DNA from: Halobacteriales archaeon QS_9_67_15
Lineage (GTDB): Archaea; Halobacteriota; Halobacteria; Halobacteriales; Haloarculaceae
Direction of reading: 5' to 3'
Length of the DNA: 33,093 bases
Assembly: GCA_003023165.1 (NCBI GenBank)
Contig: PXSD01000169.1
Coordinates: 12,582 to 45,674, forward strand
The notes beneath the pieces are model-generated. The model made no database searches. It worked only from the letters and a program-made list of their open reading frames with translations, and was not told the DNA's origin. Of the stretch, positions 3,676 to 21,874 are shown piece by piece. Each line of letters opens with the position of its first letter. Within the stretch, counting starts at the first letter, position 1. The position numbers and the translations under genes are program-made.

Positions 3676-4715
3676 CCGACCCGACAGTGCTCACCGAACT
3701 GACCGCGCTCGCACTGCAGGCGGGCTTCGTCGACGGGCTCACCGACTTCCTCGGCCCCTCGAACCTCGCGAGCGTGGTCGTCGAAGGGCTCGCCAAGTCG
3801 GCCATCTACGTGATGATCGCGAGCGGACTCACGCTGATATTCGGCCTGATGGGCGTGCTCAACTTCGCACACGGGTCGCTGACGATGATCGGTGCCTACC
3901 TCGCCGGCGTCGTCATGGTCGTCCTCGTCGGAAACGCGACCGGACAGTGGACCCGGATGGCGTTCTTCTTCGGCGCGCTCGTGGTCGTCTTCATCGCGCT
4001 GGCCTTCCTCGGTGGCGTGATGGAGATCGGACTGATCCGCGAACTGTACACCAGACCGCCGATCTACCAGATCCTCCTCACCTTCGGGCTGACGCTCGTG
4101 CTCGAAGAGACGGTTCGGATCGTCGTCCAGTTCTACGGGCTTCAGCCGATCTCCGAGTGGCAGGGCGCGCTCGGCACGAAGCCCGCGTTCATGGCGACAG
4201 AGCACTCGCTCGGTCCGCTCTCGGTGCGCGGACTGGCAGCCTTCGAGATCCTCCTCGGCCTCGCGACGGTCGCGGCGATCTGGGCCTTCTTGACGCGGAC
4301 GCGCTACGGCCTCTACATCCGTGCCGGCAGCGAGGACGCCGAGATGGCAGAAGCGCTCGGCATCGACGTGCGTCGCGTGTTTACCGTCGTTTTCGCGCTC
4401 GGTGCGGGCATCGCCGGTGTCGCCGGCGCGCTCCTGATGTGGGACCCGGTGTGGGGCGCGAGCGTGCCACTTGCCGCGGAGACGCTGTTGCCCGCGTTCG
4501 TCGTCGTCATCATCGGCGGCCTGGGCACCTTCCGCGGGACCGTCGCGGGCGCGCTGGTTGTCGGGATGGCAGACGCGACGACGACGTGGTGGTTCCAGAA
4601 CGTCTTCATCACCTGGACGTGGCTCCCCGAGATGGCAGTGTTCCTCATCCTCGTCGGGATGCTCGTCGTGAAACCACAGGGACTGTACGGCGTCGAGGAG
4701 GTAGGTGGCCATTAG
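3672..4715 (+). CDS. Branched-chain amino acid/amide ABC transporter permease, LivH-like
   Basis: Hydrophobic; 'SGLTLIFGLMGVLNFAHGSLTMIGAYL' LivH motif. ATGA overlap with upstream gene. Confidence 0.9.
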   Translation: MTDPTVLTELTALALQAGFVDGLTDFLGPSNLASVVVEGLAKSAIYVMIASGLTLIFGLMGVLNFAHGSLTMIGAYLAGVVMVVLVGNATGQWTRMAFFFGALVVVFIALAFLGGVMEIGLIRELYTRPPIYQILLTFGLTLVLEETVRIVVQFYGLQPISEWQGALGTKPAFMATEHSLGPLSVRGLAAFEILLGLATVAAIWAFLTRTRYGLYIRAGSEDAEMAEALGIDVRRVFTVVFALGAGIAGVAGALLMWDPVWGASVPLAAETLLPAFVVVIIGGLGTFRGTVAGALVVGMADATTTWWFQNVFITWTWLPEMAVFLILVGMLVVKPQGLYGVEEVGGH

Positions 4716-9403: not shown

Positions 9404-9542
9404 GCGGCGGCCTACTGTGGGCCTGTACTAAAGTATGGAGGAATCGGTCCGACGGTGTTCGGCCCGCCGAAATGCCGCTCGTATCTATCCCACGAAACTG
9501 ACCGGCTGTTCGGACGATACGCGGTAGCGACCGACTCGACTC

Positions 9543-9573
9543 ATACGGATTATTGTAGCGATTTACCGGTACG
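9543..9573. repeat. Copy 1 of dispersed repeat ATACGGATTATTGTAGCGATTTACCGGTACG
   Basis: 31 bp identical to 21256-21286; no inverted partner visible here (half-element). Confidence 0.9.
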
Positions 9574-12633: not shown

Positions 12634-13212
12634 ATGGAGAGAGACGTGAGCGTCCGGGAGGTGATGGACCGGGAGTTCCTCGGTGCCAGCGAGTCCGACG
12701 GCCTCCGAGAGGCAGCGGAGTTGATGCTGGTGGAAGACGCCGACAGCGTCGTCGTCCTCCGGGGGAGCGACCCGGTCGGGGTCGTGACGGAACGCGATGC
12801 GCTGGAGACGTTCGTCCGGACGGACGGAGACTCCGCGACAGTCGCGGACGCGATGACCGAAGACGTCCCCACCGTCGCCCCAGAGATGACTATCGCCGAA
12901 GCCGCGGACGAGATGTCCGCACAGTCGACCCAGCGAGTCCTCGTCTCCGGCGAGTCCGAACCGCTCGGGGTCCTGACGGAACACGACCTCATGACGGCGT
13001 CGCCGTTTTCACCGACCGCCGACGGCCCGACCGCCGTCGAGGGAGGGCGTGCCGTGGCCGGCGTCTCAGCGGGCCGCGGCCAGTCAGCGACGGAACGGCG
13101 CGGCGAGGGCCGCTTCGCGGACCAGTCGCTCTGTGAGGCCTGCGGCTCGCTCGCGCGGGACCTCTCGCCGTTCAACGGACAGCTGCTCTGTTCCGACTGT
13201 CGAGACATCTGA
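12634..13212 (+). CDS. CBS-domain-pair protein with C-terminal zinc ribbon
   Basis: Two CBS repeats ('VREVMDREFLGASESDGLREAAELML...VVTERDALE', 'VADAMTEDVPTVAPEMTIAEAADEM...VLTEHDLM') and 'LCEACGSLARDLSPFNGQLLCSDCRDI'. A start at 12610 is possible. Confidence 0.88.
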   Translation: MERDVSVREVMDREFLGASESDGLREAAELMLVEDADSVVVLRGSDPVGVVTERDALETFVRTDGDSATVADAMTEDVPTVAPEMTIAEAADEMSAQSTQRVLVSGESEPLGVLTEHDLMTASPFSPTADGPTAVEGGRAVAGVSAGRGQSATERRGEGRFADQSLCEACGSLARDLSPFNGQLLCSDCRDI

Positions 13213-21074: not shown

Positions 21075-21218
21075 ATGCATAAGGAGGACCCGTACACGCC
21101 GGAGAAGTCCCGGTACGAGTGCGTCGAGTGCCTGAACAGAGAGACGACCGACGGAACGGTGGGTGCCTGTCCCGAGTGTGGCGGTCGGATGAAGAACGTG
21201 GCCGTCCCGCGAGAGTAA
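21075..21218 (+). CDS. 47-aa rubrerythrin-like zinc-ribbon protein (missed by the ORF track)
   Basis: ATG..TAA: 'MHKEDPYTPEKSRYECVECLNRETTDGTVGACPECGGRMKNVAVPRE'; two CxxC knuckles. Confidence 0.85.
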   Translation: MHKEDPYTPEKSRYECVECLNRETTDGTVGACPECGGRMKNVAVPRE

Positions 21219-21255
21219 CAGAACACCGCGTTTCGGCGGCGACGGTGCTCGCCTG

Positions 21256-21337
21256 ATACGGATTATTGTAGCGATTTACCGGTACGCGCCGACCCCGGGG
21301 TCGTCGCAATCCGGAAATAATCTACAATAATCCGTAT
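21256..21337. repeat. 82-bp hairpin element with perfect 16-bp inverted ends and central palindrome; copy 2 of the dispersed repeat
   Basis: ATACGGATTATTGTAG (21256-21271) / CTACAATAATCCGTAT (21322-21337), central GACCCCGGGGTC palindrome (21291-21302); left 31 bp identical to 9543-9573. Confidence 0.92.
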
Positions 21338-21342
21338 GAGCC

Positions 21343-21804
21343 TTATTCGTCGAAGTCGGGGAGTTCGTCCGGCGGTTCGTAGTCCGCGCCCCAGTCGATG
21401 TACTCCGACTTGAGCACGTCACAGACAGTCTGCCCGAACTCGGTCAACCCCGCGTTGATAGTCGAGACGGTGCCCCAGGAGTCGAGCCCCGTGTGGATGT
21501 CCATCCGTCGCCAGTCTTCCGGGATCCCGGGGGCGTGGTAACCGACGCGGTCTGCGAAGTCGTCCCAGAAGAAGTCGAACTCCGCGAACAGACCCAGTTC
21601 GGTGCAGATGTCGAACGTCTCCTCGTCCATCTCGGTGCGGGCCGCCCAGTCATCGAATGCCTCCGCCCACGCGCCCGATTCGAGGAACTTGCCGAGTTCG
21701 TCGCGGCGGTAGTCGTCCACTTCGACGTTCACGTCGTCGTACTCCGCTGCGTCCAGTTGGGATTCGAGCTCGGGGGGGTCCGGCGGGGCGACGTCGAGTG
21801 TCAT
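21343..21804 (-). CDS. Conserved haloarchaeal hypothetical protein
   Basis: Acidic ORF from MTLDVAPPDPPELESQ; 'FDFFWDDFADRVGYHAPGIPEDWRRMDIHTGLDSWGTVSTINAGLTEFGQTV'. Confidence 0.7.
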   Translation of the reverse strand: MTLDVAPPDPPELESQLDAAEYDDVNVEVDDYRRDELGKFLESGAWAEAFDDWAARTEMDEETFDICTELGLFAEFDFFWDDFADRVGYHAPGIPEDWRRMDIHTGLDSWGTVSTINAGLTEFGQTVCDVLKSEYIDWGADYEPPDELPDFDE

Positions 21805-21874
21805 GCCACCGAGTACGTTCGGTCGCGGGAAAAGTCCACGCACACGCGGTCTCGCTCCGGCCGCTCCCCGGTCG

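Follow-up and report, generated by a model that had tools for sequence, protein, structure and literature searches.

The window, a 33,093-nucleotide stretch of a contig from Halobacteriales archaeon QS_9_67_15, carries at 21075–21218 on the plus strand a gene for a 47-aa rubrerythrin-like zinc protein (DUF7129, NF033497, by protein family match) and, convergent with it at 21343–21843 on the minus strand, a 166-aa ORF that has no Pfam match and whose 3' end is conserved in many relatives. Between the two 3' ends lies a hairpin that the initial annotation had placed at 21256–21337. The sequence agrees with that description: the 16-bp ends are perfect, the inner arms pair imperfectly and the centre reads GACCCCGGGGTC. 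Its distances from the end of the zinc protein gene (21218) and from the minus-strand gene, whose TAA stop is at 21343–21345, are also as annotated. The proposed extent of 82 bp stands only in part. Comparison among copies sets the mobile unit at an 80-bp core (21257–21336, plus strand), a near-complete palindrome by copy comparison and fold, and the first and last letters of the annotated hairpin, A and T, belong to flanking TGA triplets at 21254–21256 and 21337–21339 (both plus strand). The triplet pattern and the empty alleles of other copies identify these as the left and right halves of a 3-bp target duplication. The core is bounded by a left terminal inverted repeat, TACGGATTATTGTAG (21257–21271, plus strand), and a right one (21322–21336, minus strand), which match each other perfectly and whose end motif is kept in 17 subfamilies. 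The palindromic centre occupies 21291–21302, with no assigned strand, and the inner stem covaries across subfamilies.

Folded as a single strand, the window hairpin has a predicted stability of -42.5 kcal/mol; none of 200 dinucleotide shuffles was as stable (z = -7.1), and no 16-bp inverted repeat that was perfect and fell within 100 bp arose in any of 50 block-shuffled windows. This copy occupies the gap between the 3' ends of the convergent genes and is off any stop codon: its left TGA starts 35 nt past the stop of the rubrerythrin-like protein and its right TGA is 3 nt before the stop of the convergent gene. Since seven congeners keep both genes and a short spacer with the element absent, the window copy is a lineage-specific insertion; the congener spacers are too diverged for its original target to be read base by base. 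A truncated second copy, with the left end only, is present at 9544–9573 (plus strand) behind a TCA at 9541–9543, and reads TCA-TACGGATTATTGTAGCGATTTACCGGTACG with unrelated sequence beyond.

The genome-wide search for copies that the initial annotation had proposed finds, by BLAST, at least 41 at 88–100% identity in the source genome (G000, a 2.35-Mb, 191-contig draft that is 71% complete), where a 14-bp end motif occurs 61 times per strand with at most one mismatch and the same pattern read backwards does not occur. The annotation had named a lack of further copies as a refutation, and this does not hold. The multiple copies, the perfectly matching terminal inverted repeats, the 3-bp duplication and the empty sites together support the miniature inverted-repeat transposable element (MITE) that the annotation had offered as one option; it had recorded neither the duplication nor the stop-codon preference described below. 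The window subfamily is matched in 16 of 60 genomes and 12 of 43 genera, some of the matches being short and weak. All named carriers are haloarchaea, the matches being mostly from Halomicrobium katesii plus several Halobacteriales metagenome-assembled genomes, and the plasmid carriers are mainly Haloarcula and Halomicrobium. A sister subfamily, whose ends read TACTGCCGGCTGTAA, occurs in 32 of the 99 genomes searched and in 19 of 47 genera; first-look candidates reach 181 in a single genome, and their number is highest in the near-complete genome G032. At 80% identity, 174 copies with a clean duplication fall into 17 subfamilies, 15 of which are 76–80 bp long, and the superfamily has the end consensus TACnGnnnnnTGTAR. 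It is spread through the Haloarculaceae, and copy numbers in haloarchaea run from dozens to hundreds. Matches to the 14-mer in viral contigs are essentially at chance level, and phage records give short chance matches only.

Further observations concern individual copies. Those at L021 and L022 have a common right flank and different left flanks, as after recombination between copies or segmental duplication. A GGGTGGGACTGAAAGGGGC motif at the insertion point in L104 and L137, from two different genomes, looks like a separate repeat. One of the few genic insertions lies inside an IS transposase gene (L347:1455–1535, genome G082). The copies in L149 and L109 are interrupted by another element with GAGGGTGTCATAG ends, which at L149:4310–4725 is about 0.4 kb long and has TTTAT on both sides; it codes for a 66-aa protein whose likeness to ribbon-helix-helix regulators falls just under the Pfam cut-off.

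When 27 diverse copies are aligned, 26 chosen pairs between the two arms are 88.6% formed, with two-sided changes at 21 of them. Two-sided changes occupy 148 cells compared with 54.5 in shuffles, a control that ignores relatedness, and pairing drops to 25–44% when the partner is slid by 1–3 columns, a control that keeps relatedness. One-sided changes of the G-U type are confined to 16 cells, and because these are so few the palindrome appears to be kept as DNA more than as RNA. A reason for such conservation may be that both ends have to be recognised or that one arm is copied onto its partner. The pattern bears on the protein-binding cruciform that the initial annotation had put forward as a possibility.

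The flanks are TGA/TGA at 79 of 154 copies, TCA/TCA at 55 and TTA/TTA at 2, giving identical triplets of these kinds at 136, and a TAA/TAA duplication is seen for the sister subfamily on a plasmid. An empty Halomicrobium allele (94.6% identity over 497 bp) reads ...GACTGAG..., with a single TGA, and a comparison of the plasmids pHmuk01 and pLC1Hm-01 provides three clean filled/empty pairs in which the TGA is present twice when the site is filled and once when it is empty. The element is therefore a MITE that makes a 3-bp duplication at each insertion; parsing it as 82 bp with a 1-bp duplication gives an identical empty site and is indistinguishable by sequence from the 80-bp/3-bp parse. The target motif is GAC-TGA-G(A/T)C, with constraint on both flanks, and the orientation of the interior relative to the duplication is mixed (27 against 16). 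Tandem pairs of MITEs from different subfamilies, with one TCA/TGA triplet in common, are seen at L117:4049–4211 and L157:7040–7202.

Insertion into a TGA or TAA stop codon rebuilds the stop, since the duplicated triplet is itself a stop codon. In a first test by codon score, the TGA of the duplication was in frame with the upstream coding region in 72 of 85 confident cases. Sites were also classified after removal of the elements, with genes called by a codon-usage caller that recovered most annotated stops on four RefSeq-annotated loci. In a catalogue built from loci retrieved by element similarity, rather than from a random genome sample, 93 of 165 element sites coincide exactly with the stop of a predicted gene, another 58 fall between genes and 14 within them. 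The corresponding numbers for 460 control CTSAG sites are 39 (8%), 137 and 284, these classes being subject to uneven annotation quality and to a caller that misses short genes. The stop is TGA in 92 of the 93 stop-codon insertions compared with 451 of 690 predicted genes. Insertion rates rise from genic to far intergenic to 3'-proximal sites and are highest at stops. The enrichment at stop codons exceeds the local effect of the motif: matched by a motif score learned from the non-stop insertions, which are few in number, stop sites have an odds ratio of 4.7 relative to the remaining sites no more than 100 bp from a 3' end and of 8.9 relative to distant intergenic sites. Just one of 85 stop-codon copies lies inside a close tandem gene pair, against 71 of 339 TGA-ending control genes, which is consistent with a transcriptional effect or polarity and also with operon disruption.

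RefSeq annotation provides a check that is independent of our own caller. By this measure, 11 of 20 elements on the two Halomicrobium plasmids adjoin an annotated stop, the 20 including some elements common to both plasmids and several without an intact duplication; for elements with an intact duplication the count is 7 of 12. Those that adjoin annotated CDS stops are at 4602, 21105, 87715, 187625, 202422, 208168 and 217012 on pHmuk01 and at 12941, 70887 (TAA), 129904 and 166547 on pLC1Hm-01. The annotated length of the pHmuk01 gene at 87430–87714 equals that of its pLC1Hm-01 homologue, which has no element; an upstream gene keeps its length because the duplicated TGA rebuilds the stop at the element edge. 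Two further stop-adjoining copies are found in Haloarcula hispanica pHH400 and Haloarcula litorea. At 307 of 348 ends a TAR triplet, in frame with the TGA, lies five codons inside the element. This TAG or TAA might act as a reserve stop, an idea that is speculative because the TAR bases are also part of the conserved end.

At 76–80 bp with 15-bp ends, the element is non-coding and too short for an ORF. A transposase with matching ends, for which the initial annotation had suggested a search, was found neither in the 2.55 Mb of DNA scanned for paired ends nor beside PF01609 matches. There was no match to PF13359 or PF13586 in the eight genomes searched and none to PF01609 in G000, whilst PF07592 matched neither the genomes searched nor any control genome and is hence uninformative. 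Pairs of good ends at IS-sized spacing are mostly two neighbouring MITEs; the others are weak and unpaired, and several are in unrelated viral contigs. A 1.49-kb candidate for an autonomous element with a TCA duplication (L349, 1007–2498) was rejected. CTTTACGAAC is present at both of its inner edges, so its transposase gene is better read as belonging to an ISH8-like IS inserted into a MITE of the sister subfamily. A subfamily of 107–109 bp with TACGGATTACTGTAG ends (L253–L258) has full matches in G000 only and an interior that is largely non-palindromic; it is the strongest candidate for a form that arose by deletion from the missing parent transposon. IS5-family groups and PIF/Harbinger elements make 3-bp T-N-A duplications, and the core of the duplication described here is alike, although a member with the element's ends was not found in the searches made. 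The simplest inference is that the mobiliser is a DDE enzyme with a 3-bp stagger.

The feature is very probably a MITE with no transposase of its own that is presumably moved in trans and rebuilds stops at TGA/TAA targets. Carrying no gene, the element would depend on a transposase that reads the TACnGnnnnnTGTAR ends and cuts a GAC-TSA-G(A/T)C target with a 3-base stagger, so that TGA/TCA (or TAA/TTA) is duplicated. In the case of insertion into a stop codon, where about half of the copies are found, the stop is rebuilt at the element edge and the upstream protein is unchanged. As for function, the likeliest reading is of a selfish element that is tolerated where genes end.

The preference for stop codons could be the work of natural selection alone, acting on an ordinary MITE whose target is of the GACTSAG(A/T)C type, if insertions that rebuild a stop are neutral and most others are harmful. 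We regard this as a serious possibility that falls a little short of being probable. It is in keeping with the depletion of genic insertions (14 of 165 sites against 284 of 460 control sites), with the graded rates of insertion from genic sites to stops and with the avoidance of close tandem genes; moreover, acidic C-termini ending in GAC-TGA already resemble the target motif. However, motif-matched sites in the 100 bp that follow a gene, where an insertion should do hardly more harm, are hit 4.7-fold less, and the bias is already present in the youngest copies, those at least 98.5% identical to another copy, of which 41 are on stops, 28 are intergenic and 7 are genic. An unrecognised haloarchaeal transposase might instead home on stop codons themselves, beyond the motif, with the duplication as a built-in repair and the in-frame TAG/TAA as a backup, a proposal that we put forward tentatively and consider rather unlikely.

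Explanations that dispense with a selfish MITE fare less well. A hairpin useful to the host, kept at gene ends by selection as the mobile bidirectional terminator of the initial annotation or as a 3'-end stabiliser of mRNA, is improbable, and the terminator is not needed to account for the data: the strong predicted fold would suit it, as would the near-absence of copies inside close tandem pairs and the position of stop-codon copies mostly before convergent genes (51 of 85 against 131 of 339 control TGA genes), but in archaea it is generally U-rich tracts that bring about termination and a scan for a T-tract at the element found none. The small number of G-U type changes (16 one-sided against 148 two-sided) also favours conservation as DNA over RNA, and presence or absence of copies varies widely between strains. 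Rfam gave no match above the gathering score and, below threshold, a match to an animal microRNA family only. It is more doubtful still that the element is a REP-like palindrome moved single-stranded by an HUH (Y1) transposase of the RAYT type after CTGA, the right TGA then being the element's own. Although the hairpins are near-perfect, the ends contain a GTAG tetranucleotide, a TGA always adjoins the insertion and the mixed orientation of the interior relative to it is as expected of a near-palindrome, the Y1 transposase family PF01797 is absent from near-complete G032 and from G103 (it was also not found in incomplete G000 and G029; seven other genomes have it), and the bases downstream of the TGA are also constrained, which fits a staggered double-strand cut. 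Finally, the draft state of G000, with its 191 contigs and some copies at contig breaks, might suggest an artefact of assembly or binning; this is refuted by the copies, duplications and empty alleles in isolate genomes and complete plasmids, and its probability is negligible.

As a kind, the MITE is already known. Prokaryotic MITEs are short, non-coding, hairpin-forming elements with perfect terminal inverted repeats, a target duplication and many copies (PMC10969869, PMC2229807), and the element agrees with those described (RUP, Correia, Sulfolobus, Haloquadratum) in all these traits. It differs from them in that its duplication is almost only TGA/TCA and about half of its copies are on stop codons, in its near-constant length of 76–80 bp, in a fully palindromic yet sequence-variable interior, and in a parent transposon that was not found. 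SMR-A of Haloquadratum walsbyi, of about 110 bp, has terminal inverted repeats and up to 54 copies without a matching transposon, and the Haloquadratum SMRs are reported to lack a target duplication and to lie mostly in other mobile elements (PMC3119063). The element is likewise haloarchaeal and has terminal inverted repeats, and differs by its 3-bp duplication at gene ends. REP elements are 20–40 bp extragenic, GTAG-tagged palindromes near gene 3' ends that have no target duplication and are associated with RAYTs (PMC3733652). The palindrome at the 3' end and the GTAG are alike here, whereas the 80-bp length, the 3-bp duplication and the copy-rich genome G032 without a Y1 transposase are unlike REP/RAYT systems. 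In the literature searched, which had most subscription journals and all bioRxiv preprints outside it, the end sequences appear in no relevant context and there is no description of stop-codon-targeting MITEs; nor was an earlier report found there of self-repairing stop-codon placement, of near-constant length with a changing palindromic interior, or of the breadth of the superfamily.

To reach safe sites, mobile elements usually stay out of genes or else home on tRNA genes or terminators. In the present case the damage is repaired by the very duplication of the target, a TGA being entered and a TGA given back, and each genome has a very large number of sites that are safe in this way. The element also accounts for a large class of palindromes at the ends of haloarchaeal genes that might otherwise pass for terminators or non-coding RNAs. 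Targeting and selection can now be put to a direct test in Halomicrobium and Haloarcula strains that grow in culture. If stop-codon homing is true, it would give a mobile element a harmless landing site in most genes.
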